Shown here piece after piece: positions 28,049 to 45,006 of a stretch of DNA of 53,085 nucleotides (position 1 is the stretch's first letter; each line of letters starts with the position of its first letter). Below the pieces are notes generated by a model. That model ran no database searches, was not told the DNA's origin, and worked only from the letters and a program-made list of their open reading frames with translations. The DNA comes from Fusobacterium perfoetens (GTDB lineage: Bacteria > Fusobacteriota > Fusobacteriia > Fusobacteriales > Fusobacteriaceae), in contig NZ_JADYTX010000011.1 of the NCBI RefSeq assembly GCF_021531475.1, forward strand, positions 1-53,085, in the 5' to 3' direction. A program made the translations under genes and the position numbers.

Positions 28049-28450
28049 ATGAAATTTTCATTAGAAAGTGATTACGAAGTAAGGATAGTTCTACAATTAT
28101 ATATTTCACCTAACAAAAGAGAAAAATCAAGCCAAGTATTGGAAGAGTGTCGTATTCCTCCAAAGCTAGGTCAGAGGACAATAACAAAACTTGTAAAAGC
28201 AAATGTACTTCGCTCCATAAGAGGAAATAACGGTGGAGTGGAAGTTATAAAAAAACCAGAGGATCTTTCATTGTATGAAGTAATAAGTGCAGTGGAAGAT
28301 TTGACAATAAAAAAATGTATAGATAACCCAGAGAATTGTCGTTGGAAATGTGTGGATTGCTCTTTATATAAAAATGTTGTTAGAATCAAAAAAAGATTTC
28401 TACAAGATTTAAAAGACGTAAAGTTTAAAGAATTAATAGAACAGATGTAA
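28049..28450 (+). CDS. Rrf2-family transcriptional regulator with four C-terminal cysteines
   Basis: A 133-residue winged-helix regulator. The Rrf2 HTH spans about residues 5-65 (KLGQRTITKLVKANVLRSIRGNNGGVEV). Four cysteines at 90, 97, 101 and 104 could bind an iron-sulphur cluster, as in IscR, NsrR and RsrR, so sensing of iron, oxygen, nitric oxide or redox is plausible. GGAGGG lies before the ATG. No terminator is visible after it and the phase-variable fimbrial promoter starts 55 bases later, making it a candidate regulator of that operon. Confidence 0.88.
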   Translation: MKFSLESDYEVRIVLQLYISPNKREKSSQVLEECRIPPKLGQRTITKLVKANVLRSIRGNNGGVEVIKKPEDLSLYEVISAVEDLTIKKCIDNPENCRWKCVDCSLYKNVVRIKKRFLQDLKDVKFKELIEQM

Positions 28451-28504: not shown

Positions 28505-28534
28505 TTGACAAACCAAATGGGGGGGGGGTATAAT
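28505..28534 (+). promoter_or_regulatory. fimbrial operon promoter with G10 tract in the spacer
   Basis: Perfect TTGACA (28505-28510) and perfect TATAAT (28529-28534) are separated by 18 bases that include ten consecutive G (28519-28528). In this AT-rich genome such a G run is striking. Loss of one G would give the optimal 17-base spacing; other lengths would weaken the promoter. This matches known slipped-strand phase-variable promoters (for example Bordetella fim, Neisseria porA). That expression actually switches is inference. Confidence 0.85.
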
Positions 28535-28546
28535 TGTCCAGTTAAA

Positions 28547-28565
28547 TTCTACCGTGATAGTAGAA
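28547..28565. promoter_or_regulatory. 19-bp dyad at the start of the fimbrial leader
   Basis: TTCTAC-CGTGATA-GTAGAA, perfect 6-bp arms, beginning about six bases after the expected transcript start. It is placed where a repressor would block transcription, or it could be a 5' hairpin protecting the mRNA. A further GGGAGAT...ATCCCCC hairpin lies at about 28576-28592. Confidence 0.4.
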
Positions 28566-28658
28566 AAAGAAATTGGGAGATTATATCCCCCTTTTATGTT
28601 GTAAAATTGGATTATTAGAAATGAATAATAGAAAAAATAAGATTTTGAGGTGGGAGTT

Positions 28659-29393
28659 ATGTTTACTAAGAGAAAAATATTTTTAACTTTTTTATTTTTT
28701 ATGATTTGGGTATGTAGTTTTTCATATATAAATATTTCTCCAACAACATTGGATAAAAATATAAAAGCTGGAGCTTATCAAGAATTTACTTTTTATAATG
28801 ATACAACTATACCATTTCGTTATAAAATAACTCCTGTAGCAATGACGGATAATAAACTTGTAAAAGATATGAGTAAATGGGTTGAAGTTTATCCTAAGAT
28901 AGTAACTGTAAATCCTACTGAATCAAAAAAATTTAAAGTATATGTAAAAGCTGATAAAAATGCTGAGACTGGAGATTATGGAACTTTCTTAAATATTAGA
29001 CAGATGTCAGCACCAAAGTTAAAGGGAGAGGAAGAACAAAACATAGGTGCTGGAATGGTAATAATGGTAAATCTTAATATGGGGATTTATGGATATGTAG
29101 GAGAGAAAGAGCCTAAGATAGAAACAACAGAGCCAACTGTATATAAAAAAGGTGAGAAAAGTTTTCTAAAAATGAAACTTGCAAATAAAACAAATAGACT
29201 TGTAAGACTAAAAATAGAAGTAGAGGGAAAAAGAAATTATTTTTATACAATAGGAGAAACAAGAGCTTTTAAAGGACAAACTTTAGAGTTTGACCACGAG
29301 ATAAATAGAATAGGAAAAAGTAAAGCTAGTAAAGTAATAATCACTGATGTAGAAACTGACAAAGTAATAAAAGAGATAAAAATAAAAAAATAG
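28659..29393 (+). CDS. periplasmic fimbrial chaperone (PapD-like)
   Basis: A 244-residue exported protein: signal peptide KIFLTFLFFMIWVCSFS, then an Ig-like domain reading ISPTTLDKNIKAGAYQEFTFYNDTTIPFRYKITP and a proline/serine-linked strand VTVNPTESKKFKVYVKADK, as in PapD-type chaperones where the first strands bind pilin subunits. A second Ig-like domain follows from about residue 145. The size matches CFA/I-type CfaA (about 238). The ATG 28659 is chosen because GAGG lies eight bases upstream; GTG 28650 overlaps that site. It is first in the operon, as in class 5 fimbrial operons. Confidence 0.75.
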   Translation: MFTKRKIFLTFLFFMIWVCSFSYINISPTTLDKNIKAGAYQEFTFYNDTTIPFRYKITPVAMTDNKLVKDMSKWVEVYPKIVTVNPTESKKFKVYVKADKNAETGDYGTFLNIRQMSAPKLKGEEEQNIGAGMVIMVNLNMGIYGYVGEKEPKIETTEPTVYKKGEKSFLKMKLANKTNRLVRLKIEVEGKRNYFYTIGETRAFKGQTLEFDHEINRIGKSKASKVIITDVETDKVIKEIKIKK

Positions 29394-29463
29394 CCTAAAA
29401 ATAGCTCTTATATAAGAACTATAAACTATAAAAAACGTATATAAAAAAATAGGAGGGATTTTT

Positions 29464-30015
29464 ATGAAAAAATTATTATTTGTAACAGCATTATTAGCAA
29501 TGGGAACTATGGCAATGGGAGAAAATCCTACTCAAAATGCAGAATCAAAAGCAGAGGTATTAGTAAAAGCTCAAATAGTTGATGATTTATTTAAAATTAC
29601 TGATATTGATGGCAATCCATTAGTACTAGACTTTAAAGAATTACCAAAAATGAATTATACTAATAATATAGCAAAAGCATCAGTAGAGTACAAAGTTACA
29701 GCTAAAGAAGCAATAGTAGATAGCGCAGTAGAATTAGCAATGTCATTAACATCTTTTGAAAACCCTGAAAGCAAAGATGGAGTAAGTAAAGTAATACTAA
29801 AAAATGAAGATAGTACAGCAGCTCAACAAGATCCAATAGAAAATGACCCTAATAGAATAGAGGCAAACTTAGGACTAGACAAAGCAACTAAAAAAATGGA
29901 AATTAATCAAACAACAGTAGTAGGAAAAATTAACGGAACAATAAACACTGATCTTTCTGATAAAAATACAGGAGATTATTCTGGTAAAGTTTTCTTAGTT
30001 GCAACAGTTAAATAA
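29464..30015 (+). CDS. putative major fimbrial subunit (CS1/CFA/I-like)
   Basis: A 183-residue exported protein with signal peptide KKLLFVTALLAMGTMAMG. The mature start EVLVKAQIVDDLFKITDIDGNPLVLDF resembles CS1-type pilins (T-x-x-V-x-A-x-V-x-x-x-x-x-L-x-x-x-DG-x-x-L). It has no cysteines, as in CS1-type pilins, and the end GDYSGKVFLVATVK resembles their C-terminal strand. Position after the chaperone, AGGAGGG before the ATG and a terminator directly after it all suit an abundant structural subunit. Assigned by pattern and context, not by search. Confidence 0.65.
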   Translation: MKKLLFVTALLAMGTMAMGENPTQNAESKAEVLVKAQIVDDLFKITDIDGNPLVLDFKELPKMNYTNNIAKASVEYKVTAKEAIVDSAVELAMSLTSFENPESKDGVSKVILKNEDSTAAQQDPIENDPNRIEANLGLDKATKKMEINQTTVVGKINGTINTDLSDKNTGDYSGKVFLVATVK

Positions 30016-30036
30016 TAAAAAATAAAATAAACTATA

Positions 30037-30063
30037 AAAAGGGCTATTGCTTATAGCCCTTTT
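30037..30063 (+). terminator. terminator between pilin and usher
   Basis: GGGCTAT/ATAGCCC stem with TGCTT loop, flanked by AAAA and TTTT. Partial read-through would give many pilin mRNAs per usher mRNA. Confidence 0.85.
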
Positions 30064-30100
30064 CTATTAAAAATATAAAAAATAATTAATGGAGAATTTT

Positions 30101-32608
30101 ATGAAGAAGATAACCACGATTTTATTTTTATTGTTAAGTTCTCTTACATTTGCTAGTAACCTCGGTGGAACGAAACTAGCTTATGACGGGGTAGAATTTT
30201 TTATAAGTGATGAGGAAGAAAGAATAGGGGCTTATACCTTAGAATTAAAAGGGATACCTTATAGTTATACATATACAGTAATAAAGGAAGGGGACGAGTA
30301 TTTTTTCCCTCTTTTTGAATTTATAAGAGCAGTCGGAGTTGAGAACTATAAATATGACAGAGGAGTTCTTACTATTTTTTTTAATGCTAACGAAGATAAA
30401 AGAGTAATAGACCTAAGAAAATTAGATGAAAGTTCTTATATATTTGAAGACAATGATTATTTTATCTGTGAAAAATTATTTAAAGAATATTTTTTCCAAG
30501 AGTTTAGAATTGACAAAGAGAATTTTACAATAAAAACAAATCCAAATTTTATTTTACCAAAAGAGATGAAATATATTTTGGATAATAAAACTAGAGAGCT
30601 AAAAGAGGAGCTTAATAAGGAGATTTTACTTTACAAGGGAGAAAGAGAACTATTTGATATAGGAAACTTAAGAATAAACCTTGAAAAAGAGATGATAAAA
30701 TCTTCTGATGGTGGTGGAAGAAAATATGACTGGTCAGGTTCTTTAGAGTATAGTGGATCACTTTTATTTGGAAACTTTATAACAGAGTACGATTTAAAAG
30801 AGAAAAAATTTAAAGATTTTGAATTAAACTACTATGGAATAAAAGAGGACTATGAATTAAGTATTGGAGTTTATGGAGAGGACAGAGAAAAACAACTGAC
30901 TTTTAGAAAAGATAGAGGATATTCTCTTAATGATGGTAGAGAATATATAATTGAAGAAAGAGTGCCAGTTGGAAGTAAGGTAGAACTTATCTATGGACTA
31001 TTCCCAATAGATGTACAAGATGAAGTAGGAGGAAAGGTTACTTTCGTCAATAGTCTTATTAAATCAGGTAGAGAATTTATTTTAAAAATCTATGAACCTA
31101 ATGGAAAGATTTGGGAAAAACTTGTAAAAATAAACGAAGACTATAACCAACAGAAAAAAGGTGAATTTGGTTATGATATTTCCATAAGAGAGGATAAAGA
31201 ATCTAAAAGAAATAAAGCTGACTTAAATATTTACTATGGATATACAGATAATCTAACTATGGGATTTTCTTGGAATCAATATCCAGAGGAGTATGAAAGA
31301 GGTTGGACATATATAAAAGAGATGGGGACAGAACTTATCTATTCAAACTCAATAGATGGAAATCCTTATACACTTTCTTATGAATATACAAGAGGAATAA
31401 ACAAAGATGAATTTGAAACTGAAAGTTTAAAAGGAAAGTATAAACATAGATATTTCTTGGATACAGATATAAAAAACTTTGGGATTACTTATGAACAATT
31501 TGATAATGGACGTTACTATGAAGAAAAAAGAGAAATCTATATAGATGTTGACTACGACCTTACAGAAAATATAACATTGACTGGAAGTTTGGAAGATACT
31601 AAGTATCACGAAAAAGATAGAGATGATGAGACAGATTATTATTACGGTTTGGAGTTTAGTAAGAGCTGGAACTCACTTTTAGCAAGTTATGAGATAGAAA
31701 ATAATAAAAAAGGTGAAACAAGACATAGTTTAGATTTTTATTATACAGGATTTAAAGATTTTACAGTAAGACTTGAAAATACTTTAGATGAGGATAATAA
31801 ATATGAGGGAGAATTAAAAATAAATAATACAAGATGGATGGACAATCTTGATTTCTCTATGGGAATGAGATATTCAGAGGATAAACGAGCTGAGTATATG
31901 GTTGAATTTACATTGAAGTTTGACAACTGGTTAGAATTTGGAAGTTCTGCTGAGAAAAATGGAGATAAGAGAACTTATGTAGGAATTGATAGAGTAATAA
32001 GTCTTAAAAATCCATTACAAAATATGAACTCTCTTGAAAATACAACTATAAAAACAATAGCTTTCTTAGACAGAAATGATAATAATAAGATTGATAAAGA
32101 TGAAGAAAAATTATCAGATGTAGAAGTAAGTCTTGGAGAAAAAAAAGTAGTAACAGATGAAGATGGAGAGGCATATATCTATGGTATCCCAAGTTATACT
32201 GATTACGAAATAACAGCTTTGAGTAGAAGACCGAGCCACGACGGAAAAGCTACAAAAATAAAAGTAAGAGGAATGGGAAGTTCTGAAGTAAAAGCCTATA
32301 TTCCTATAAAACCTTTGATCACTTTTATGGGAGAAGTTAAATTTGATAAAGATCAATCAATATTATCTGATACAAGAATAAAACTTAATAAAATTTCAAC
32401 AAAAGAAACTGGAAAAATAATTCCAGTTGAATCAAATGGAGAGTTCTATATAGATAGTTTAACAGCTGGAAAATATATGATAGAGGTTGAGTATCTAGGA
32501 GAGGACTACAATATAAAAAGATATAAAAGACAGATAGATTTAACTTATACAGATGAAAATGCTGGAGATAACTATTACTTATTTGAATTAGAGGAGGTAA
32601 AGAAATGA
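30101..32608 (+). CDS. outer-membrane usher-like protein
   Basis: An 835-residue exported protein with signal peptide (KKITTILFLLLSSLTFA). The N-terminal 140 residues form a small folded region. A long middle with alternating aromatic strands fits a beta-barrel, and PVGSKVELIYGLFPIDVQDEVGG may be the plug. Near residue 650 an SdrD B/carboxypeptidase-regulatory-like domain reads FLDRNDNNKIDKDEEKLSDV...VTDEDGEAYIYGIP, followed by a second such domain. Size and operon position match the CFA/I usher CfaC (about 870). ATG 30101 is six bases after GGAG; ATG 30089 has no site. The stop overlaps the next start as ATGA. Confidence 0.65.
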   Translation: MKKITTILFLLLSSLTFASNLGGTKLAYDGVEFFISDEEERIGAYTLELKGIPYSYTYTVIKEGDEYFFPLFEFIRAVGVENYKYDRGVLTIFFNANEDKRVIDLRKLDESSYIFEDNDYFICEKLFKEYFFQEFRIDKENFTIKTNPNFILPKEMKYILDNKTRELKEELNKEILLYKGERELFDIGNLRINLEKEMIKSSDGGGRKYDWSGSLEYSGSLLFGNFITEYDLKEKKFKDFELNYYGIKEDYELSIGVYGEDREKQLTFRKDRGYSLNDGREYIIEERVPVGSKVELIYGLFPIDVQDEVGGKVTFVNSLIKSGREFILKIYEPNGKIWEKLVKINEDYNQQKKGEFGYDISIREDKESKRNKADLNIYYGYTDNLTMGFSWNQYPEEYERGWTYIKEMGTELIYSNSIDGNPYTLSYEYTRGINKDEFETESLKGKYKHRYFLDTDIKNFGITYEQFDNGRYYEEKREIYIDVDYDLTENITLTGSLEDTKYHEKDRDDETDYYYGLEFSKSWNSLLASYEIENNKKGETRHSLDFYYTGFKDFTVRLENTLDEDNKYEGELKINNTRWMDNLDFSMGMRYSEDKRAEYMVEFTLKFDNWLEFGSSAEKNGDKRTYVGIDRVISLKNPLQNMNSLENTTIKTIAFLDRNDNNKIDKDEEKLSDVEVSLGEKKVVTDEDGEAYIYGIPSYTDYEITALSRRPSHDGKATKIKVRGMGSSEVKAYIPIKPLITFMGEVKFDKDQSILSDTRIKLNKISTKETGKIIPVESNGEFYIDSLTAGKYMIEVEYLGEDYNIKRYKRQIDLTYTDENAGDNYYLFELEEVKK

Positions 32609-33096
32609 TGAAAAAATTTATTGGAATATTTTTTCTGATTTTTAATATAGGTCTATATGCAGAGGGAGAAAATATAATAGTACCAATGATACCTTTACTT
32701 CCAAGTATGCCTGCAAATCCTGAGGCAGAGGGAAAACCAGTGCCTCTTGAAACAAAAACAATAATAATGAAGATGGAAACAGAGATAGAAGTACCATTAG
32801 AAATAATATCTGATACAGAGATACAAGCTTTGATAATAGATGATCAAAGAGCTGTTGTTCCCTTTGAAATAGAGATGAATAAAGAGCCTGATAAAAAAGA
32901 TTATTATAAGCTAAACTATAGTGAAACAGAGATAGATATTGACGAAGATGGAGAAGTTGATACTAAAATTTATTCAAATGAATTTATAAATTCAAAGATA
33001 GAAAAAGAAAATTATGTTGTTATAGAGGGAAAAAATATTTCAAAAGAGGGGTATCACGAAAAAATTATATATTTAACAGTGGAAACTCACGATTAA
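32605..33096 (+). CDS. small exported protein, putative minor fimbrial subunit
   Basis: A 163-residue protein with signal peptide (KKFIGIFFLIFNIGLYA), a proline-rich segment (VPMIPLLPSMPANPEAEGKPVP) and a beta-rich remainder ending EGYHEKIIYLTVETHD. It overlaps the usher stop by four bases; a second ATG at 32608 is equally usable with GAGGAGG upstream. I recognise no family. Location between usher and giant adhesin and a pilin-like last strand suggest a minor pilin or adaptor. Confidence 0.6.
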   Translation: MMKKFIGIFFLIFNIGLYAEGENIIVPMIPLLPSMPANPEAEGKPVPLETKTIIMKMETEIEVPLEIISDTEIQALIIDDQRAVVPFEIEMNKEPDKKDYYKLNYSETEIDIDEDGEVDTKIYSNEFINSKIEKENYVVIEGKNISKEGYHEKIIYLTVETHD

Positions 33097-33108
33097 TTAG
33101 GAGGAAAA

Positions 33109-33576
33109 ATGAGAAAGTCAATTTTAACTATGATATTTTTACTTATCACAACATTTTCTTATTCAGAGATAAAAGTATCTGTTTTTGAAAATATGAAATT
33201 TGAAAATATGAATACTAAAAATATGAGAAATAGTATAGTTGGAAGAGGAGTTTTGGAAATCCAAGCTGATGAGGAAGATTTTGGAAAAATAATAGAGCTT
33301 ACATTTGTTGAGAAAAGTTTGATGACAAATGGAAAAAATCCTGTGATGATAAGAAAAATAGAGGTAGAAGATAAATATAAAAAATTTGTTTTAAACTCTA
33401 AGATAACACATATAGAGTTTACAGCAGTTCTTAATCAAAGAAGAATAAAAGCCGAAAGTAAACCAGCTGATGTTGTAGAGGGAAAATATGTGGGAGGAAT
33501 TCCTATTATGATATCAGTGTATAAGGGAGAAAATACTAACGAAAAACAAGAGGCAAAAAATAAGGTGATAAAATAA
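33109..33576 (+). CDS. small exported protein, putative minor fimbrial subunit
   Basis: A 155-residue protein with signal peptide (KSILTMIFLLITTFSYS), no cysteines and a beta-rich body. The segment VEGKYVGGIPIMISVYK near the end resembles the last strand of the major subunit in this operon. No family is recognised. GGAGG precedes the ATG, and its stop overlaps the next start by one base (TAATG), which points to coupled translation with the giant gene. Confidence 0.6.
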   Translation: MRKSILTMIFLLITTFSYSEIKVSVFENMKFENMNTKNMRNSIVGRGVLEIQADEEDFGKIIELTFVEKSLMTNGKNPVMIRKIEVEDKYKKFVLNSKITHIEFTAVLNQRRIKAESKPADVVEGKYVGGIPIMISVYKGENTNEKQEAKNKVIK

Positions 33577-36500
33577 TGAAAGGGCTAAAAAAATTTTTAT
33601 TTTTCTTTTTAATTCTATTCGCTTTTGGATTTTCTAATGAGAATAAAGATTCAAAAGTTGTACTTGATAAAGTAAGAGAAACATCACAATTAAAAATAGG
33701 TGTAACTAAAATAAAATCAAAAGAACTACCAATGGAGTTTGATGTAGAGAGTAAAAAAGTCTATGGAGAGATAGAAATAACTGATAATGATCTTGTATTT
33801 GTATCTGAAACTTTAGATGAGATACCCTCTATTTCAACTACTAATGGTAGAAGAGTGATAAATAATATAAATAAATATCTTACAAAAAATATAAAAGAAT
33901 CTCCAAAATTTAATTATCAGATTGTAGATGGAAAAACTGAGTCTGGTGAAAAAAATGGAAAAAAATACCTTTTGATAGATTGTAAAGAACAACTATCTAG
34001 TGTGTATGTGTATGTTTTGGAGAAGGGAAGTTATAAGATAAAGAATGTTTATAAAGGGGCTTTTAAACAATTATTTTTAAGGACAGTTAATGAAACTTAT
34101 GGAAATCTTAATATAGAATCAGATATCATAAATAAAGATTATAGAAAAATAACAATAAAATCAGGAAATTTATATGTATCAAAGCCACTAAATTATAATT
34201 TAGAAGATACTGAAGTTAAAGCTGGTATTAATCTTAGTGGGAAATTTCCTGAAAGAGTTTTATACGAAACTTTAAAACAAGAAGGCGGAGGTAAAAATTT
34301 ATATATAAGAGCAATTGTTACTTCAAAATATGGAAAAGATGAAAAAGAGATAAAACTTTCAGAGTCAAATGGGGGATATTCAGATTATAAAGCTATTCTA
34401 ACTTTGAAAGATAGTACAGGACAAGACTCTACTTTAATAGGTATTATTTCAAGTGATGAACACAATAGTGAAAAATATCTTTCAATATTTATAAAAAGAC
34501 CAAGACCATTTGAAGATGATGAATACAAAGTGGAATTAAAATATGGATATTATGGTGGAATATTTAATGGTACTTTTTATGAATTGATTAATCATAGATT
34601 TAATATTAATATAAAAGGAGATGGAGAACAATTTTTACCAATAGGAACAGATGGAAAAATTCTTTTTGATAAACCAGAGCCATTTTTAACGAAATCTCCT
34701 ACAATAATAGGAGGAAATGTAAATGGAGAAAAAGAAACTCCTAATATAGATAATTCATATATATTAAAAGAAGAGTATAGAAATACTGGAAAATTTTTAA
34801 AAAAGCCTTTAAACGGAGAGATGACAGTAAATAAAATACAAGATGGTGTGGATTTAAAAATATCTTTGGATACTTCTACAATAGAAGGATTAAATGAATC
34901 AGCTACCAAAACAATAAAGCTGAAAACTAATGGAACAGATATTTGGGATGGGAAAATAGCTGAAACTACATTTAATCTTTATGATGTATTAGGTAAAAGT
35001 ATAGGAAAAATAGGAGTATTTTCAGATAGTGAAACAGATGAATATTATAAGATAAAAATAACTGGATGGGATAATTCATTTACTCATCAAGTAGTAGAGG
35101 CTAAAATTACTTTAATTTATGAGAAAGTTATAAATAGAGGAAAACATGAAAAAAGAAAAATAATAAAAAAAGACACTTATACTATTATAATAAGTCCTAG
35201 AGAGGAAATAATACCAGCAAATACAAGAGGAACTTTAATTATAACTAATCCAAAGTGGCTTTCAGGGCATGATATATTTATAGATGATTTTAATAAAGTA
35301 GGGATAAGAGAAAATACAAAACACGATGCATTTGATGGAACTTTTGTAAAAGAACAACTTATGTGGTCAGGAAAAATACCTGAAAAATTTGTAACAATAA
35401 ATAAAAAAGAGGCTTGGGTTAACTGGGGTAAAAATCCAAGACTTATAATAAGAGGAGATAATGGTTTTGGAGAGAAAAAAACAGAACCTGAGATTTATGA
35501 TTATAAAACAGGAAATTTTAAATCAGTTGGTTTATCTGGAGATGAAGGTTGGAATGAAATAAAAAGTGTAAAAGGAAAACATATAGGATGGATTTATTTT
35601 TCAATAACAGATAGAGATGAAGATTCTAAAACTTTTGTGATTGGTTTTTGCGGCGGAGTAACGAATCCATTATATGGAAGACAAATGGAAGATATAACAG
35701 AAGAAACAGGAAATGTAATATACAGATTTGAATTTGCTTATCAAGTACAAGTTGGAAATGAATGGATAGATAAAAAAGTAGATGTATTGGATTTAGTTAT
35801 ACAACCGGAACTTCCAGTTAGTAGTCCTAAAATAAAATTAAATAATCCTCTTGTTTACTATGATTATAATTCAAGTAGTGCAATAAGTAATATTATTCAC
35901 AATAGAAGAGTTCATCTTGCAAAAGACGAGGCAACAACTTTAAATAATAATGGCTCAAAATTTATAAAAAATATTAGTTTAGATGGAGAAGAGTGGATAA
36001 TACCTAGTAGTGAAGTCAGAGATTATCCTTGGGAAACATTAGGAAAGCATAAATTAAGTATTAATAGAGGAACAAATGAGGTAATAAAAATAACTAAAGA
36101 AGATGGAGGAACAAACTCTTCTACTTATTTAAGAGGAGATGGAGTTAATGCTATAAATGGAAGTAAAAATGAGGTGATGTTTTCTTATGATGGCGGAAAT
36201 AGATATCTAAACTTTGGTTTATCTAAATATAATTTTGATGGAGAAAAAATAAATGATATAGTTATTACAAACTATGATGATAAATCATTTGAAAGTAGAA
36301 TAACTTACTCAGTGGATATTCCACCATTTGAAGGAATACATTATGTAGGAAATTATGATATTAGACCAAGACAAAGCTATACAAAAGATTATGAATATAA
36401 TCCTAAAATAGCTTATACTGAGGATGTTATAATAAATTATGGAATAGTTGGGTTTAGAAATCTAGATACTAGAATAACAGAGCAATCTGGTGGAGAAGGA

Positions 36501-38726
36501 ATAGATTTAAGGACTACAACAAAGGTAAAACTTGTAAGTGAAAAAAATCCAAACTATGTAATAACAGGAGCAAGACTTTATTTTGAAAAAGATGAGGCGG
36601 ATGCTATAAAAGAAAAAAATCCAATAGAAACAAGTATCTTTAAAGGAGAAAATGAAAAAGCTACATCTGCTATGTTAAAATTATTTATTCCAAGACAAGA
36701 AAGACTAATCCCACAAGGAAAATTTAAAATACTTGTAGATGATGAAATTAATAAAGAAAAAAATAATAAAAATCCTTTAAGAGTAGGTGTGACTGTAAAA
36801 GGAAATGACGAAAAATATTATACTTATATTGGTGCTAACAAAAGAGGAGAAATAGGAAAAGATCTTTATTTAAATTTAAAAACTAAACGTTTTGTTGAAA
36901 CTATAATTGAATTTGAAAATCCAAATTTAAAAACTGATGCTCAAGGAGAAAACTGGATAAAATTAAATAAAAGTAATTTTGAGAGTGGAACTCTTTCAAG
37001 AGACATAGAAGGATCAAATATTTGGGGAAGAGTAAGAGGAGATATAATAGATATCCCTATAAAAAAAGCTGATGGGACTTTATATAATTTAAAAATGACT
37101 TTATTTGATGAAAATAAGGAAAAAGTTTTAATAGATAATCTTAATACTAAAGATGGAAGTAAAAAAATTGAATTTGGAACAAATAAAAATTTTATAATAG
37201 GACGTGAAAATTTAGAGGATAATTATATAAGATTTACTTTAGATAATGGATATGAAATTTCAGATATAGGTAAAGAAATAAAATTCTATATAAGATATCT
37301 TGATACTACAACAAATGAAAAAGGAGATTTTTTATTTGACCAAAGATATATAGTTAAATTTAAAAAAGAAGCTAAATATAAAGGAGACACAACAATTATT
37401 TTAAAAAATCCTATAACAGCATTGAGTAATTTGAATGATGATGGAATGATAGATGTAACAAATATAAAATCATTAGGAAAAGATAATAGTAATACAAAAT
37501 TAGATTTTATAAAATGGTATAAAATTATAAATCCAATAAAATATCCAGAGACTAATCTAGTTTCTGTAACAAGAATAGAGGATAATACAGAAATACAAGA
37601 TTATAATAAATTTTTAAAATTACAAAAGGGAGTTCTATATTTTGGAATACCTAATAATAAAGCAGATTTTGAAACTATATTCGGAAAGTATGATGGAGAA
37701 AAAATAGAAAAATCTTTTGAACTTAAATTTGCCTCAGATAATAGTAATTCTTATAGACTAAATATTATTATAGAGAAGTTTGATCCAAAATATTATGGAA
37801 AAGTATTTAGAGGAAGTGGCGAAACAGATTATGGTGATTATAAAGAGATAAATGAAGTTGGAATAGGAAATATAGATTTAACTAAATCTAATATTGAAAA
37901 AGACGGATATGTTTATGTAGATTTGGGCACTTCATACAGAGATTATTTAAGATATGAAAGTTTACCAAAAGTATTGTTAAAAGAAGAGTTAAATATTAAA
38001 GAAAATGGAGAAGTCCAAGCGATACCCAAAAATTCTATTTATGCAAAACCATTAGTTGGAGAAATAGTTTTAAAAAATGGCAGTGAATATATTTCTCTTA
38101 ATACTAAAGGAAAAGAAGTAAAATATACTGAAGATGGGTCGATAGCTCCGAAAGAATACTCACTTAAATTAAAATTAAGTATAAAAGAGTATAAAAAACT
38201 AAAACCTGATACAGAATATGAAATATTTAATAATGGTGAACAAAATGTTTTAACTATAGGAACAGATAAACTAAATGATAATATAATATTTAATAAAACA
38301 CTTAGTTTTAATACTATAGGACCAAGTTTAAAAATTACAAACGGAATTATTGATTTTGGAAAGATAAAACCTAAAAATGAAGAAGGACCTATAATTAATA
38401 AAGAAGGAAAAACTACTACTCCATTAGAAGTTAGAATAACAGGAACTTTGGATAAGGATTTAGGAATAACAAATCAAGAATTGATAGTTGAAAAAGATAC
38501 TATTTTTATAAATCAAGTAAATGCTCATGGAATTCCTATGGAAAACGGAGGAAAATTAAAAGTAAAAGACTTAAAAACAGTAAAAAAAGATTCTACTATT
38601 CAGACAGATCAAAGTATTCTAGAGCGTTATGATGTACAAGGTATATTAGAAGTAGACAAAAATATTTCAGAAGAGTATTATGGAAATTATAAAGGAAGTG
38701 TTACAGTAGTATATACATTCTATTAA
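33576..38726 (+). CDS. 1716-residue exported protein, putative fimbrial tip adhesin
   Basis: A giant secreted protein: signal peptide KKFLFFFLILFAFGFS, then about 1550 residues of beta-rich, Lys/Glu/Asn-rich sequence with no recognised domain, and a C-terminal region (about 1585-1716) starting GPSLKITNGIIDFGKIKPK and ending YYGNYKGSVTVVYTFY. This ending resembles pilin domains, as two-domain tip adhesins (FimH, CfaE) carry at their C-terminus. It is last in the chaperone-pilin-usher order, the place of the tip adhesin in CS1-like operons, though about five times larger than CfaE. There is no cell-wall or membrane anchor. Function is inferred from position and the C-terminal strand. Confidence 0.55.
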   Translation: MKGLKKFLFFFLILFAFGFSNENKDSKVVLDKVRETSQLKIGVTKIKSKELPMEFDVESKKVYGEIEITDNDLVFVSETLDEIPSISTTNGRRVINNINKYLTKNIKESPKFNYQIVDGKTESGEKNGKKYLLIDCKEQLSSVYVYVLEKGSYKIKNVYKGAFKQLFLRTVNETYGNLNIESDIINKDYRKITIKSGNLYVSKPLNYNLEDTEVKAGINLSGKFPERVLYETLKQEGGGKNLYIRAIVTSKYGKDEKEIKLSESNGGYSDYKAILTLKDSTGQDSTLIGIISSDEHNSEKYLSIFIKRPRPFEDDEYKVELKYGYYGGIFNGTFYELINHRFNINIKGDGEQFLPIGTDGKILFDKPEPFLTKSPTIIGGNVNGEKETPNIDNSYILKEEYRNTGKFLKKPLNGEMTVNKIQDGVDLKISLDTSTIEGLNESATKTIKLKTNGTDIWDGKIAETTFNLYDVLGKSIGKIGVFSDSETDEYYKIKITGWDNSFTHQVVEAKITLIYEKVINRGKHEKRKIIKKDTYTIIISPREEIIPANTRGTLIITNPKWLSGHDIFIDDFNKVGIRENTKHDAFDGTFVKEQLMWSGKIPEKFVTINKKEAWVNWGKNPRLIIRGDNGFGEKKTEPEIYDYKTGNFKSVGLSGDEGWNEIKSVKGKHIGWIYFSITDRDEDSKTFVIGFCGGVTNPLYGRQMEDITEETGNVIYRFEFAYQVQVGNEWIDKKVDVLDLVIQPELPVSSPKIKLNNPLVYYDYNSSSAISNIIHNRRVHLAKDEATTLNNNGSKFIKNISLDGEEWIIPSSEVRDYPWETLGKHKLSINRGTNEVIKITKEDGGTNSSTYLRGDGVNAINGSKNEVMFSYDGGNRYLNFGLSKYNFDGEKINDIVITNYDDKSFESRITYSVDIPPFEGIHYVGNYDIRPRQSYTKDYEYNPKIAYTEDVIINYGIVGFRNLDTRITEQSGGEGIDLRTTTKVKLVSEKNPNYVITGARLYFEKDEADAIKEKNPIETSIFKGENEKATSAMLKLFIPRQERLIPQGKFKILVDDEINKEKNNKNPLRVGVTVKGNDEKYYTYIGANKRGEIGKDLYLNLKTKRFVETIIEFENPNLKTDAQGENWIKLNKSNFESGTLSRDIEGSNIWGRVRGDIIDIPIKKADGTLYNLKMTLFDENKEKVLIDNLNTKDGSKKIEFGTNKNFIIGRENLEDNYIRFTLDNGYEISDIGKEIKFYIRYLDTTTNEKGDFLFDQRYIVKFKKEAKYKGDTTIILKNPITALSNLNDDGMIDVTNIKSLGKDNSNTKLDFIKWYKIINPIKYPETNLVSVTRIEDNTEIQDYNKFLKLQKGVLYFGIPNNKADFETIFGKYDGEKIEKSFELKFASDNSNSYRLNIIIEKFDPKYYGKVFRGSGETDYGDYKEINEVGIGNIDLTKSNIEKDGYVYVDLGTSYRDYLRYESLPKVLLKEELNIKENGEVQAIPKNSIYAKPLVGEIVLKNGSEYISLNTKGKEVKYTEDGSIAPKEYSLKLKLSIKEYKKLKPDTEYEIFNNGEQNVLTIGTDKLNDNIIFNKTLSFNTIGPSLKITNGIIDFGKIKPKNEEGPIINKEGKTTTPLEVRITGTLDKDLGITNQELIVEKDTIFINQVNAHGIPMENGGKLKVKDLKTVKKDSTIQTDQSILERYDVQGILEVDKNISEEYYGNYKGSVTVVYTFY

Positions 38727-38732
38727 AATTTA

Positions 38733-38776
38733 ATGTTGTAGATGTTTAATAAAAGTTTTATATCTGCAACATTTTT
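38733..38776 (+). terminator. terminator after the giant adhesin gene
   Basis: ATGTTGTAGAT pairs with ATCTGCAACAT (one G-U pair) across an 18-base AT loop, followed by five T. Confidence 0.75.
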
Positions 38777-38798
38777 ATAAAAAATTGGGAGATAGATT

Positions 38799-41700
38799 AT
38801 GAAAAATAAAATGAAAATATTTTTTATTATGTTGGCGATGACTTCATTGGTTTATTCTAAAGAAAATACAGTCGATAAAATAGAAAAGTTTAACTCTAAT
38901 CTTGTGGTACAAGGTAAAGATATAACAGAAAGAATAGATTATACTTTATATCCTCAAAATATTACTTTAATTCCAAATGGGGCAACTAATGAAGAGATAG
39001 AAAAAATAAAAGAAAAAAATAAGAATGAGTTATTTCCTAAACAAAGTTTTAACTATAAAACTAATACAATTGAAAATGGATTACATAATGGGAAAACAGA
39101 TGCTAAGTTGGCTATTTATGCAGAAGATGGAGCTACTATTCATAATATAGGGAAAATTTTGTCTTATGATCAAAAAATCAATACAAACTATGGAGGAGTT
39201 TTAATTACAGGAATAGATAATCCTTTAAAAAGAAATGATAATTTAATAGGATTAAAGGGAGATATAGATTCTTTTGTAAGTTTTATAAATGATGGTCAAA
39301 TAGAGATGGGAGCTACTGAACATGTATTAGCAGTTCCTGTTAATATTGCAGGTTTAATACCAACAAGTATTACTTTTGCAGATTATGGCAAATATATAAT
39401 TAATGCAGCTTTTAGTGATATTAAAAATAATGGAACTATAACTAATGGAATAGATAGCACTAAATATATTAAAGCTGTAGATGTTGGAGTTTTGAATGGT
39501 GGAAGAATAGATACTGATAGAAGAGCGGTAAATTTAGAACAAGGTAGTGTAGAAAATACAGGTCTAATTAATTTAGAAAGAATAAAACAATTTGAACTTA
39601 TTGATGGAGTTGCCGTAGATTTACTCCAAATAGGAGTTCATTTTTATAGAGACGACTATGGGATTAATATTTTAAATGAATCTACTCTAGGAAAATCTAA
39701 AAATAGTATAAATAGTGGAAAAATATTTATTGGAGGAGATATTTATTCACAAGGATATTCTGGAATAGGAGTATCAGCTTTAGGAGCAGACTTTATAGGA
39801 GAACATAATAAATACGGTATAAATAGCAAAAATTCTACATTTATTAATACAGGTACAATAGAGGTTGAAAGAGATTTTGCGAAAGCTCTAGATGATAATA
39901 ATAATATTGTTGATCTATATTTATTTTATAAAAATTTTCTTAAATTAGGGCTTTTATCATTTACAAATTTAACAGAGACAAGTATTGGTATTAATATTAA
40001 TGGTGGAGAATTTTATAATAATGGTGGAACAATATCTGTTGGAGTAAATGAAAGTAAAAATATGGTGACTCAACTTAGAAAAGGAAGAGCCATAGCAGTA
40101 GCAGGAGAAAATGGTGCTAATATTTATTTTAATACTAATATTGAAAATAAAAATCCTATTTTAAGTACAGATAAAGAAGAAATAAAATCTACTATTAATC
40201 TTGAAGGAATACACGTTTATGCTACATGGTTAGAAGGAGGATCAACTGCTACTTTTAATGGTCTTACAGAAATAAATTTTAATATGCCACCAATAGCTTT
40301 ACCAGACAATGCTACAGAAGAACAAAAAAAAGACTATGAAGAGGCAGTTGCAGATTATGAAAATAGAAGAAATAAAGAGATATTTCATACTGAAGATACG
40401 AGTAAAGTAGTAATCAATGGAACAATTAGAGCTAATGGAGACTTCAGTATAGACAATACTAAAAACAATATAGAGATAGGTGGCGGATATAAAAAAGGTC
40501 CTATTATGGAGAATGGAAAAGTTGTAGTATATGAAGTAGTTGTAACTCCTGGTAAGATAATTTCTATTGGGAAGATAGGACTTAATGGAGATTTAAAAGT
40601 AGATACTACTAATTTCGTAGGAATGTTAGAAAAGGATATGAAAAAATATATTGACCATAAATATGTTGAGGCTGATGGTGGAATAACAGGAAATGGAAAT
40701 CTTGTATCAAGCTCTTATTTATTTGATATAAAAACAGATAAAACAAATAATTCTATAAGTTTAACTGATGTTAATAGAAAAAATTTCAATACAATAGTTG
40801 AAAATAAAGAGCTTGGAAAAATTTTAGAAGATTCTTATGAAGGAGTTTCTGGAGAAAAATTAGACTTCTATAAATATATCTCACTTGGAGATAACTATGA
40901 AAGTTTCTCTGAAAGATTAAATGAAATTACAGGAATAGACAATATAACTACCTTAGAGGCACAAGTAGTAGATATTACAAAAGATTTAAACAGACAATAC
41001 AAAGGATTTATAAAAAATAATAAGGAAGAGGGAGTTGTATTTAGTTATTTAAACAGTAAATCTGAAATAGGAGAACAAGGAAAATATTCAGGTTTTGAAA
41101 GAGAAAGTAATGGATTTATGTCTGGATATAATAAATATGTTTTAGATAATTTAAGAGTTGGAGCAGGTCTATCTTATATGAAATCTAGCATAGATTATAC
41201 AGATGAAAGTTCAAATAAAATAGAAACTTGGAATGCAAGAGCTTATTCTGAATATAAGATAAAAAATATAAATTTATTAAGTGATATATCTTTTGGATAT
41301 AACCAAAGTGAAAATAAAAGATTTGGTGGAGATAATTTACATAGTGGAGATGTAAATATCTATACTTTAGGATTTAATAACTCTCTATACAAAAACTATA
41401 ATATTACTGATAGATTTAGTGTAAATCCTAGTATCAATCTAGACTTTACTTATTATTATCAAGATGATTATAAGGAAGATAATGGAAAATTCTCTGTAAA
41501 TGGAGATAAGACTAATGGGTATTATGGAACTTTAGGAACAGCAGTAGATTTAAAATATGATATTTTTGCTAGTGGTAATAATAAAATATCATTAGTTGGT
41601 GGAATGGAATATTCTTATGATATTTTAAGTAGTACAGAGGATATAGATTTAGAAAATATTATAGGTAAGTTTTCTGAAGAAAAAAGAGAGCTAGATAAAA

Positions 41701-41834
41701 ATTCATTAGTTTATAATTTAGGAGTAGAATACACTTATAATGATGATTACTCTGTTGGATTAAAATATTCAAAAGAGATTGTAAATGATGTTGATAATGA
41801 AAAAATAGGTTTAGATTTTACTTATAAATTTTAG
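38799..41834 (+). CDS. type Va autotransporter
   Basis: A 1011-residue outer-membrane protein. Signal peptide KIFFIMLAMTSLVYS, then a passenger of about 700 residues with beta-helix-like repeats of the INNG/NNGTI kind (for example DIKNNGTITNGI, FYNNGGTISVGV, STFINTGTIEVE). A linker leads to an about 260-residue autotransporter barrel with alternating aromatic strands from RQYKGFIKNN, ending DFTYKF with a terminal Phe, the usual BAM recognition end. The passenger activity is unknown; adhesion is typical. It is separated from the fimbrial genes by a terminator and followed 23 bases later by a second autotransporter. Confidence 0.88.
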   Translation: MKNKMKIFFIMLAMTSLVYSKENTVDKIEKFNSNLVVQGKDITERIDYTLYPQNITLIPNGATNEEIEKIKEKNKNELFPKQSFNYKTNTIENGLHNGKTDAKLAIYAEDGATIHNIGKILSYDQKINTNYGGVLITGIDNPLKRNDNLIGLKGDIDSFVSFINDGQIEMGATEHVLAVPVNIAGLIPTSITFADYGKYIINAAFSDIKNNGTITNGIDSTKYIKAVDVGVLNGGRIDTDRRAVNLEQGSVENTGLINLERIKQFELIDGVAVDLLQIGVHFYRDDYGINILNESTLGKSKNSINSGKIFIGGDIYSQGYSGIGVSALGADFIGEHNKYGINSKNSTFINTGTIEVERDFAKALDDNNNIVDLYLFYKNFLKLGLLSFTNLTETSIGININGGEFYNNGGTISVGVNESKNMVTQLRKGRAIAVAGENGANIYFNTNIENKNPILSTDKEEIKSTINLEGIHVYATWLEGGSTATFNGLTEINFNMPPIALPDNATEEQKKDYEEAVADYENRRNKEIFHTEDTSKVVINGTIRANGDFSIDNTKNNIEIGGGYKKGPIMENGKVVVYEVVVTPGKIISIGKIGLNGDLKVDTTNFVGMLEKDMKKYIDHKYVEADGGITGNGNLVSSSYLFDIKTDKTNNSISLTDVNRKNFNTIVENKELGKILEDSYEGVSGEKLDFYKYISLGDNYESFSERLNEITGIDNITTLEAQVVDITKDLNRQYKGFIKNNKEEGVVFSYLNSKSEIGEQGKYSGFERESNGFMSGYNKYVLDNLRVGAGLSYMKSSIDYTDESSNKIETWNARAYSEYKIKNINLLSDISFGYNQSENKRFGGDNLHSGDVNIYTLGFNNSLYKNYNITDRFSVNPSINLDFTYYYQDDYKEDNGKFSVNGDKTNGYYGTLGTAVDLKYDIFASGNNKISLVGGMEYSYDILSSTEDIDLENIIGKFSEEKRELDKNSLVYNLGVEYTYNDDYSVGLKYSKEIVNDVDNEKIGLDFTYKF

Positions 41835-41857
41835 GACAGACCTTTCTAGGAGGAAAG

Positions 41858-44209
41858 ATGAATAAAATTATAAAAATAATAATACCTGCATTGATATTCT
41901 CTCTCACAGGTTGTGGAGGAGGGGGAGGTGGTGGCGGAGGTAGCAACGTCACAATTCGTCCGAATATTCCTAATCCACCAAGTATAGCAATTCCAAATAT
42001 AAATGACGGAAGTTACGATAATGAAAATGTGATAAATACTGATAAACCAATCTCTTGGTCAGTGTCTAAAAAAGGAGAAAAGGTTATTGGAGTTTCTGGG
42101 AAAAATATTGATATTTCAGGAGAGATAAAAATAACAGATATAGGAGCTAAAAATATAGAGATAAATAGTCTAAATAATTATTCTTTTGGAATTTTCTCAG
42201 AAAATGGAAATGTAAATAATAAAGCAGAGGTAATTTTATCAGGAGATAAAACTAATGGAATTTTTGGTAAAGATTCAGACATTACAAATAATTTAGAGAT
42301 AAAATCAGAAAAAATAGAAGTAACAAAAATGGAAAAAATAGACCCAAATGAAGTAATAGGGATTTTTTCAACAGGAAGTAGTGGAATAGTCCGTAATAAT
42401 GGAAGTATAAATCTATCATCAAATAATAAATCTATTGGAATGTATTTAGATAGTTCTTTGGGAGTAAATAATAAAACAATCAATGTAACTTCTAATAATC
42501 TTGCAATAGGTATGTTTGTTGTTGGAAAAAATGGAAGTGCTATTAATAATAATAAGATAAATGTTGATAGCAAAAAAAATGGTTATGGAATGGTAGCAGG
42601 ATATGGAGCAACAGCAAAAAATAATGGAACTATCAATATTAAAAATAAAGGTTATGGAATGTATGCTTTTTCAGGAGGATATGCTTTAAATGGAGAGGGA
42701 GCAGTGATAAATCTATCTTCAGTAGCTGATGGAGCAATGTTAGCTGATGGAAATGGTTCAATAGTAGAAAATAGAGGAACTATCAATATAGATAAAGATA
42801 ATACTATTATAAAAAAAGGCGAAGAATTAAAAGCTATAAATGGCGGAAGAATAATTAATAAAGGTGTTATCAATAAAAATGGAGATCTATTTTTATCTAT
42901 GGATAGAGGATTTTACCAAATAGGAACATCAGAAAATGGAAGTTATGGAAAAATAAAAAGTAAAAATCTAAGTATAGATGGAAATTTAGAAATAGATTCT
43001 ACTATAACTAAAGGAAGTTATAAAGAGGAATATCTATTAGAAGATGTTTTTGAAGCAGAAAAATTAACCTTAGATAAAAATACAAATGTCTTGTCGAATT
43101 CTATTTTATATGATGCTTTATTAGAGAAAAATTCCTTTGGAAATATAGATGGAAAGTTAGTAAAAAATGGCAAAGAGTTAAAAGATTTTGTCAAAGATGA
43201 TTTAGATCCAACTGCTAATATTTTTAATAAATATTATAATGAAGAAGATTACTTAGCTTTAGATGAGGCATCTAAAAATATTTTAGATAGAATAGATTTA
43301 TCAAATGACAAGGGATTGGAAAAAAGTTTAGAGGAGTTAACGCCTAGAATTTATGGAAATATCCAAAAGGAGATTTTGGATATAAATAGTTTATTTGAAG
43401 AAAATAGAATTAATTCTCTTGAAAATATTGGAAATAAAGAGAATAATTTTGTGTTGCTAGAAAATTATCAAAAAGTTGAGCCAGATAGAAATATTTTAGG
43501 TTATAAAAATTTAACTTCAGGATTTTTAGGGACAAAATCTCTGAGAAAAGATAATTATCTATCAGTAGGATATGGATATTCAAACATTGATTATGATAAT
43601 GATGATGATTCTAAAATCCATTCTATTAATGTAGGAATAGATAAAATTATAGAAGAAAATGATACTATATTTAAAGTTGGGTTTGGGGGATTATATAACT
43701 ATCATAAAAATACTAGAAAGTATGGAAGTCAAGAGATTAAATCTAAATTTGATTCTTATGGAATAAATTCTTATTTTGAAGTTTCTAAAATTTTTAAAAA
43801 TAAAAATATAGATTTTGTGCCTTTTGTAGGAGCTAGTTTAGGATATTATTCTTCTGAAAGTTTTGATGAAAATATAAATAATTTTATATTAGATATAGAA
43901 AAACAAGATTTTATATCTTGTGAACCTAGATTAGGTGTTGAAATTAGAAAGAGTATAAAGGATTTAGAAATTTTCTCTAAATTATCATACTCTTATGAAT
44001 TGGGAAATATGGATAAAAATTTAGATTATACCTATAGAAATTTAAATGAGAGAAATAAGATAGAAAACTTAGAAGAAAAAGATAGTTTAGATTTTAAGAT
44101 AGGTAGTAAATATTCCAATGAAAATATATGGGTATCTACTAATCTAGGGAAAGATTTTGGAGAAAATGATAATAGATATGTAGAGTTTAACTTTGGATAT
44201 AGATTTTAA
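41858..44209 (+). CDS. autotransporter with lipoprotein signal and poly-Gly linker
   Basis: A 783-residue autotransporter. The N-terminus IIPALIFSLTGC is a lipoprotein signal with lipobox LTGC, so Cys19 should be lipidated. Nine glycines follow at once. The passenger (about 60-380) has beta-helix-like repeats (VRNNGSINLSSNNKSIGM, INNNKINVDSKKNGYGMV, AKNNGTINIKNKGYGM). The C-terminal barrel, from about residue 520, ends VEFNFGYRF. A lipidated N-terminus on a type V passenger is known for a few proteins such as NalP and could hold the passenger at the cell surface. AGGAGG precedes the ATG. It forms a pair with the preceding gene. Confidence 0.88.
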   Translation: MNKIIKIIIPALIFSLTGCGGGGGGGGGSNVTIRPNIPNPPSIAIPNINDGSYDNENVINTDKPISWSVSKKGEKVIGVSGKNIDISGEIKITDIGAKNIEINSLNNYSFGIFSENGNVNNKAEVILSGDKTNGIFGKDSDITNNLEIKSEKIEVTKMEKIDPNEVIGIFSTGSSGIVRNNGSINLSSNNKSIGMYLDSSLGVNNKTINVTSNNLAIGMFVVGKNGSAINNNKINVDSKKNGYGMVAGYGATAKNNGTINIKNKGYGMYAFSGGYALNGEGAVINLSSVADGAMLADGNGSIVENRGTINIDKDNTIIKKGEELKAINGGRIINKGVINKNGDLFLSMDRGFYQIGTSENGSYGKIKSKNLSIDGNLEIDSTITKGSYKEEYLLEDVFEAEKLTLDKNTNVLSNSILYDALLEKNSFGNIDGKLVKNGKELKDFVKDDLDPTANIFNKYYNEEDYLALDEASKNILDRIDLSNDKGLEKSLEELTPRIYGNIQKEILDINSLFEENRINSLENIGNKENNFVLLENYQKVEPDRNILGYKNLTSGFLGTKSLRKDNYLSVGYGYSNIDYDNDDDSKIHSINVGIDKIIEENDTIFKVGFGGLYNYHKNTRKYGSQEIKSKFDSYGINSYFEVSKIFKNKNIDFVPFVGASLGYYSSESFDENINNFILDIEKQDFISCEPRLGVEIRKSIKDLEIFSKLSYSYELGNMDKNLDYTYRNLNERNKIENLEEKDSLDFKIGSKYSNENIWVSTNLGKDFGENDNRYVEFNFGYRF

Positions 44210-44296: not shown

Positions 44297-44311
44297 ATAG
44301 AAAATAAAAAG

Positions 44312-44452
44312 GCGGTGTACCCTACCAGTAAGTGGGAACTAAAAAAAGCGGTGTACCCTACCAGTAAGTGGGAGCTAAAAAAGCGGTGTACCCTACCAGC
44401 AAGTGGGAGCTAAAAAAGCGGTGTACCCTACCAGCAAGTGGGAGCTAAAAAA
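44312..44452 (+). ncRNA. toxI: type III antitoxin RNA (ToxI-like tandem repeats)
   Basis: Four direct repeats, starting at 44312, 44348, 44383 and 44418, of 36, 35, 35 and 35 bases. Each reads GCGGTGTACCCTACCAG, then TAAG or CAAG, TGGGAGCT (GGGAACT in the first) and a run of A. There are no spacers between units, unlike CRISPR. CCC and GGG within each unit can pair. In type III toxin-antitoxin systems each repeat is cut by the toxin in its A-rich part, folds into a pseudoknot and inhibits the toxin. The short frame across the repeats is an artefact. Confidence 0.88.
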
Positions 44453-44459
44453 GTTATGT

Positions 44460-44485
44460 AAAGGAGTGTTTATAAACACTCCTTT
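44460..44485 (+). terminator. terminator between ToxI repeats and toxN
   Basis: A 12-bp perfect stem AAAGGAGTGTTT / AAACACTCCTTT with a 2-base loop and only a short T-rich tail. In ToxIN loci a leaky terminator here keeps antitoxin RNA in excess over toxin mRNA. Confidence 0.85.
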
Positions 44486-44505
44486 ATTATATATGGAGGT
44501 ATATT

Positions 44506-45006
44506 TTGGATAAGAAAAAACTAAAATTTTATATAGTTACAGAAGAGTATATGTCCTATTTAAAAAAATATGATGAAAAAGTGATGGATAACAGAGGAAT
44601 AAAAAATAAAAGACCATATATAGGAGTTTTATTTGAAATTGATAGGAAAAAATATCTTGCCCCCCTTTCATCTCCTAAGCCAAAACATCTGACAATGAAA
44701 AATAGTTTAGATTTTGTAAAAATAAACCAAGGAGAATTTGGAGTTATAAACCTTAATAATATGTTCCCTGTCATTGAAGAGGTAATCATAGAAAAAAATA
44801 TTAATTTGGAAGAAGATAATAAATATAAAGAACTTTTGGTCAATCAACTTGATTGGTGTAATAAAATGGAGAATAGAGATAATATTTATAGAAAAGCTGA
44901 AAAATTATATAAAGAAATTTTAAATAAGAAAGAGCAGAGTAGATTTTGGAATAGATGTTGTAATTTTTCTTTACTGGAAGAAAAAGCCATAGAATTTATT
45001 CTTTAA
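44506..45006 (+). CDS. toxN: type III toxin ToxN/AbiQ-family endoribonuclease
   Basis: A 166-residue endoribonuclease of the ToxN/AbiQ family, which halts growth or aborts phage infection when freed from its RNA antitoxin. Family features are LKFYIVTEEYMSYLKKYDEKV at the start (quoted only in part as the KFY...YL...D pattern), RPYIGVLFEI, the central APLSSPKPKH with Ser55, Ser56 and Lys58, the NQLDWCN segment and the RCCNFSLLE ending. The start is TTG 44506 with GGAGG six bases upstream; a weak start would keep toxin low. It directly follows the RNA repeats and terminator, the standard type III order. Confidence 0.9.
   Translation: MDKKKLKFYIVTEEYMSYLKKYDEKVMDNRGIKNKRPYIGVLFEIDRKKYLAPLSSPKPKHLTMKNSLDFVKINQGEFGVINLNNMFPVIEEVIIEKNINLEEDNKYKELLVNQLDWCNKMENRDNIYRKAEKLYKEILNKKEQSRFWNRCCNFSLLEEKAIEFIL

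Follow-up and report, generated by a model that had tools for sequence, protein, structure and literature searches.

A probable porA-type phase-variable promoter with a poly-G spacer precedes a surface-protein operon in Fusobacterium perfoetens

In Neisseria meningitidis, expression of the porin PorA is set by the length of a poly-G tract between the -35 and -10 boxes of its promoter: expression is high with 11 G, 2-fold lower with 10 G and 13-fold lower with 9 G (PMC3639595). The tp0126 promoter of Treponema pallidum, which drives an outer-membrane product, likewise carries poly-G between the two boxes and is reported to perform best at a spacing of 17 nt, while the tprL promoter of the same organism, in which the tract overlaps the -10 region, was stronger with 8 G than with 10 G in an E. 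coli reporter (PMC7864442). Phase-variable promoters are also described for hif of Haemophilus (TA repeats) and fim of Bordetella (reviewed in PMC3899988), where repeat length changes within the promoter of surface (fimbrial) genes. Phase variation is rarely discussed for the Fusobacteriota, and a search of the open-licence full-text literature found no paper dedicated to it in Fusobacterium or Streptobacillus.

We analysed a stretch of 53,085 nt of the Fusobacterium perfoetens genome (hereafter the window). The assembly is a draft of 92 contigs, and tract lengths are given as recorded in it. On the forward strand, a perfect consensus -35 box (TTGACA, 28505..28510) and a perfect -10 box (TATAAT, 28529..28534) flank a spacer of 18 nt (AACCAAATGGGGGGGGGG, 28511..28528), which consists of AACCAAAT followed by ten consecutive G residues (28519..28528). 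This is exactly the architecture claimed in the initial annotation, which proposed a phase-variable promoter for a fimbrial operon. A sigma-70-type consensus scan between positions 20000 and 39000 returned 101 promoter-like sites, a number that matches that in shuffled sequences; within these 19 kb only the promoter at 28505-28534 matched the consensus at 12/12 positions, and the other 100 sites reached at most 10/12. The pattern GGGGGGGG matched three times at overlapping positions, where shuffled sequences gave 0.10, and every match falls inside the G10 tract. Genome-wide, the exact pattern TTGACA-N9-G7 occurs once and its reversed form is absent. The annotation's further claim that such a run is improbable in AT-rich DNA was borne out, since a first-order Markov model predicts 0.005 G10/C10 runs in the window (29% GC). 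The same model predicts 0.19 tracts of at least ten G in the 2.02-Mb genome, where five occur; a pattern search for tracts of at least eight G found only one more.

The locus shares with porA a poly-G tract between the boxes, within the range of 9-11 G, and a surface function of what is driven. As expected of a promoter of this type, the homopolymer holds the boxes at near-functional spacing (16-20 nt) and, with ten residues, exceeds the eight or more that lie far beyond chance. Unlike porA, it has perfect consensus boxes, it precedes a whole secretion and adhesin operon rather than one porin, and its host shares the order, though not the family, of Streptobacillus. The placement of poly-G between -35 and -10 is also that of tp0126, from which the locus differs in its recorded spacing of 18 nt against a reported optimum of 17 nt. 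The promoter differs from hif in its repeat unit and from Bordetella fim, which uses poly-C, in its architecture, and the putative fimbrial proteins are unrelated to those of either system.

By analogy with these systems, we consider it about 80% probable that 28505-28534 is a porA-type phase-variable promoter of the surface operon, switched by slippage of the G tract. The mechanism itself is known from the meningococcus, of which this locus would be a further example. RNA polymerase carrying the housekeeping sigma factor would recognise the two perfect boxes; the G10 tract would slip by one G at replication, moving the distance between the boxes among 17, 18 and 19 nt. Judging from porA and the Treponema promoters, such a change in spacing would alter the strength of transcription, and a population would be a mixture of cells expressing the surface operon at high and low levels. 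The recorded spacing of 18 nt, which a single slip would turn into the canonical 17 nt, is expected to be an active or intermediate state. Both the analogy and the comparative statistics given below strongly support the phase-variable promoter proposed in the initial annotation, and it is from these that we infer slippage at 28519-28528 itself.

Transcription is predicted to start 6-7 nt past the -10 box, giving a 5' leader of about 120 nt (28541..28661, forward strand, as are all features in this paragraph). The leader contains a short 5' hairpin but its overall fold is not significant (z -0.78); as it also lacks an Rfam match, an RNA switch was rejected. The first gene (28662..29393) encodes a secreted, chaperone-like protein that has two Ig-like domains. 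Its mechanically called reading frame begins at a GTG at 28650, and the first good start is the ATG at 28662, which follows a GGGAG Shine-Dalgarno sequence and lies about 128 nt from the promoter. It is followed by a secreted subunit of 183 aa (29464..30015), pilin-like by size and position and without a database match, and by an usher-like outer-membrane protein of 839 aa (30089..32608) that has C-terminal beta-sandwich domains and homologues across the family. Between these two genes lies a stable hairpin (30037..30063; -14.7 kcal/mol, z -3.8), a possible partial terminator or mRNA-processing element. Downstream are two conserved secreted subunits, m1 (32605..33096; 41-53% identity to 15 aligned family homologues) and m2 (33109..33576), then a candidate adhesin of 1716 aa (33576..38726), also secreted, whose N-terminus is common to some relatives, and finally two autotransporters (38799..41834, PF03797, E 2.5e-30; 41858..44209, PF03797, E 2.2e-19, with BigA_beta).

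The genes from 28662 to 44209 are co-directional and separated by no more than about 75 nt; the promoter would express the chaperone-like, subunit and usher-like genes, the two small subunits, the adhesin candidate and probably both autotransporters. That the products are exposed surface proteins, as annotated at the outset, is supported by their signal-peptide-like N-termini, the two autotransporter beta-domains and an usher-like protein in a family-conserved gene order. Upstream of the promoter is a gene for an Rrf2-family regulator with a Cys-rich motif (28049..28450, forward strand, PF02082), a candidate second-layer regulator that may, speculatively, add a sensed layer of control. Since no terminator was found between this gene and the operon, transcription may also enter the operon from the Rrf2 gene. 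Directly behind the surface operon lies a type III toxin-antitoxin locus (44311-45006). It comprises about four ToxI-like direct repeats, each of roughly 36 nt, together with a hairpin terminator and the gene for ToxN (PF13958, E 9e-49).

The genes behind the promoter resemble an operon of the chaperone-usher type, though a divergent one, plus two autotransporters. Most high-scoring family loci contain the chaperone-like, usher-like, m1 and m2 genes as a group, a further chaperone-like gene often being present, and these loci conserve the order chaperone, usher, subunits. This order, with a subunit between chaperone and usher-like gene, and an usher-like protein of about 840 aa are also features of the alternate chaperone-usher pili (CFA/I and the E. 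coli common pilus). In profile comparisons the chaperone-like protein matched EcpE weakly but in register (hhalign E 0.0016), as did the usher-like protein the C-terminus of EcpC alone. Matches to PapD_N at 0.01 or better were found in six of 24 chaperone homologues (best 6.5e-4), all weak. A fold search with a single-sequence model of the chaperone-like protein (pLDDT 60) placed CfaA at ranks 6-7 and gave no match at E <= 0.001. Unlike CFA/I and the common pilus, the locus has no Pfam usher match and no clear pilin match: the Pfam usher model was absent in 24 usher homologues, NCBIfam had none for the window protein, and the 183-aa subunit matched neither PDB sequences nor Pfam. A solved-structure match by sequence was rejected for chaperone, usher and subunit, the hits being limited to Ig-like HYDIN and an SdrD-like C-terminus. 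The term fimbrial in the initial annotation therefore finds weak support in the PapD_N and low-confidence CfaA matches, set against the missing Pfam usher match, and the evidence for a chaperone-usher pilus is suggestive only.

Among the family genomes examined, homologous usher operons carry no poly-G promoter in front, and an orthologous promoter in congeners was likewise not found, the usher homologues of the genus being at most 33% identical and devoid of such a promoter. The promoter is therefore a species-level feature without an orthologue, in a comparison where the species is represented by one genome. In another genus (G026), a homologous usher operon has a G8 tract directly beside the start codon of its chaperone-like gene (L083 13696-13721), where translational phase variation is possible.

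The remaining tracts of at least ten G in the F. perfoetens genome lie in other settings. In a prophage DNA methylase-like gene, a G11 tract causes a frameshift in the assembled sequence (L065 5740-7046, contig C3); this is likely a phase-variable methyltransferase. A G12 tract lies in a short leader ORF (L064 5698-5822, C7) before an acyltransferase-3-like gene, and the other frame reads ...GGGSYKSL... and runs into the TAATG start of that gene. The names methylase and acyltransferase come from reading the translations by eye. Leader ORFs with GGG[SC]Y, like that of C7, recur in the family (G002, G029, G072, G078). Finally, G12 and G10 tracts occur in two related units on the reverse strand (L062 3045-3242, C14; L063 794-953, C62), as AACG12TAGT and AACG10TAGT respectively. 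Each tract is preceded, at a distance of about 50 nt, by a perfect TTGACA-17-TATAAT promoter and followed by a terminator-like AGACC...GGGTCTTTTT hairpin. No Rfam family matched these units, which appear to be transcribed leaders or small-RNA-like units; one of the two precedes a UDP-sugar epimerase-like gene. Taken as a set, the G>=10 tracts are distributed as one would expect if the genome used poly-G for phase variation.

Poly-G spacer promoters are a recurrent kind of element, with hundreds of cases in other bacteria. In the Fusobacteriota, 68 promoters with perfect boxes and a spacer tract of seven or more G were found in 11 of 98 genomes, and the reversed-pattern control gave none. In one Bacilli order (that of G100), 40 of the 385 genomes sampled had perfect poly-G spacer promoters, and 7 of 391 genomes in a Clostridia sample had poly-G spacer promoters, both again with controls of zero. 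A GTDB scan yielded more than 120 among the matches listed. Signal- or membrane-like N-termini were present in 85 of the 114 first ORFs assigned among those GTDB matches, as judged by a rough hydropathy criterion that had no matched control, and in 40 of 47 first ORFs of the Fusobacteriota set. Single Streptobacillus genomes carry 21-22 such promoters. In this genus (G052, G096, G044; L276-L327) the TTGACA-poly-G-TATAAT design occurs as many as 22 times in a genome of 1.66 Mb, and these promoters mostly precede small paralogous families of secreted proteins, such as that with '...DIIGPRYR...'. Spacer promoters with G11 and G14 (L331, L332; G049, G039) stand before short peptides with the bacteriocin-type leader MKI[TV]ELNE..LMTIDGG.

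Differences in tract length between otherwise matching promoters were seen at several levels. Between Streptobacillus species, orthologous promoter regions with 97-98% identity across about 270 nt have G11 in one and G10 in the other, and near-identical paralogous promoters within one genome carry G9 and G11. In the Bacilli order, ten promoter families have an identical spacer flank and differing tract length inside one genome, and some genomes carry 5-20 copies with identical flanks and different tract lengths. Spacer length varies less than in shuffles: its variance was 1.23 against 2.05+-0.27 in the Fusobacteriota (n=60) and 1.79 against 4.44+-0.48 in the Bacilli (n=87), a compression that may come in part from the search pattern, which limits the non-G part of the spacer and sets no upper limit on the tract. 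Tract and flank lengths thus compensate each other, and total spacing is therefore constrained.

Recorded poly-G promoters peak at a spacing of 18-19 nt in all sets. Promoters with perfect boxes and no G tract from the same loci peak at 17 nt (14 of 26), and the poly-G promoters are therefore distributed differently. In a first, Bacillota-rich set, only seven promoters were recorded at 17 nt against 20.4 expected (0 of 5000 shuffles). This hole was spotted post hoc; a second, non-overlapping and likewise Bacillota-rich set, from the Bacilli, was gathered later as a test. Here five were seen against 13.3 expected (0.2% of shuffles), the promoters being partly dependent, as families within genomes. 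Both sets have a second peak at 16 nt beside the hole. The Fusobacteriota set has the peak at 18-19 nt and no hole (10 seen, 9.5 expected at 17 nt). This leaves two readings: either 17 nt gives the strongest expression and tends not to be the state on record, or promoters with a poly-G tract work best at a spacing of 18-19 nt.

The second reading leads to the alternative to which we give appreciable though minority credence, in which the switch is real and its polarity reversed. The poly-G tract, stiff and A-like, would favour 18-19 nt, such that G10 would already be the high state and G9 a weaker one. The peak at 18-19 nt, the contrast with tract-free promoters and the fall in porA expression from 11G through 10G to 9G (PMC3639595) all speak for it, while tp0126 is reported to be best at 17 nt (PMC7864442) and a hole at 17 nt beside a peak at 16 nt in the Bacillota-rich sets is easier to explain if the strongest state is avoided than if the optimum has shifted. 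The same evidence leaves uncertain the statement of the initial annotation that G9 would restore the optimum of 17 nt: tp0126 agrees with it, whereas the recorded spacings, the avoidance of 17 nt in the Bacillota-rich sets and the higher PorA level with 11G than with 10G or 9G do not.

We consider it improbable that the promoter is real and its tract irrelevant, a stable run arisen by chance or drift without regulated switching. The comparison covered one genome of the species and a single tract length is on record, as this explanation would allow; against it stand the excess of G>=10 tracts over the Markov expectation, the hundreds of promoters with compensated spacing and empty reversed controls, and the known instability of such tracts (PMC3639595). 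Equally doubtful is the view that the neighbouring Rrf2 regulator exerts the main control, acting on the dyad TTCTACcgtgataGTAGAA (TTCTAC-N7-GTAGAA, 28547..28565, forward strand), with the G tract tuning or aiding binding as repeats do at nadA. The regulator gene lies directly upstream and encodes clustered cysteines, and the dyad, which might instead form a 5' hairpin, is perfect and near the predicted transcript start. However, the dyad has no second exact copy in the genome, its one-mismatch count is about that of the control, and homologous operons lack an accompanying Rrf2 gene, apart from one weak match; with no regulon signal, the dyad was rejected as an Rrf2 operator. Homopolymers are error-prone, but that the tract or its length is an error of the draft is scarcely credible, as the boxes on either side of the run are perfect and functionally spaced, and G052, an assembly of a single long contig, shows the same design.

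Beyond the single locus, we tentatively propose, as a reading close to balance, that poly-G spacer promoters form a widespread and largely undescribed class recorded one slip off a strong 17-nt state, with populations primed at low or intermediate expression. The promoter at 28505-28534 would represent this class in the Fusobacteriaceae, with a divergent chaperone-usher-like operon under its control. The comparative survey is the more interesting by-product, and its rule, that selection sees spacing and not tract length alone, is simple and testable. For F. perfoetens, a phase-variable promoter at this position would mean that expression of an adhesin and secretion operon differs from cell to cell, which would affect colonisation as well as vaccines and typing schemes based on the proteins of the operon.
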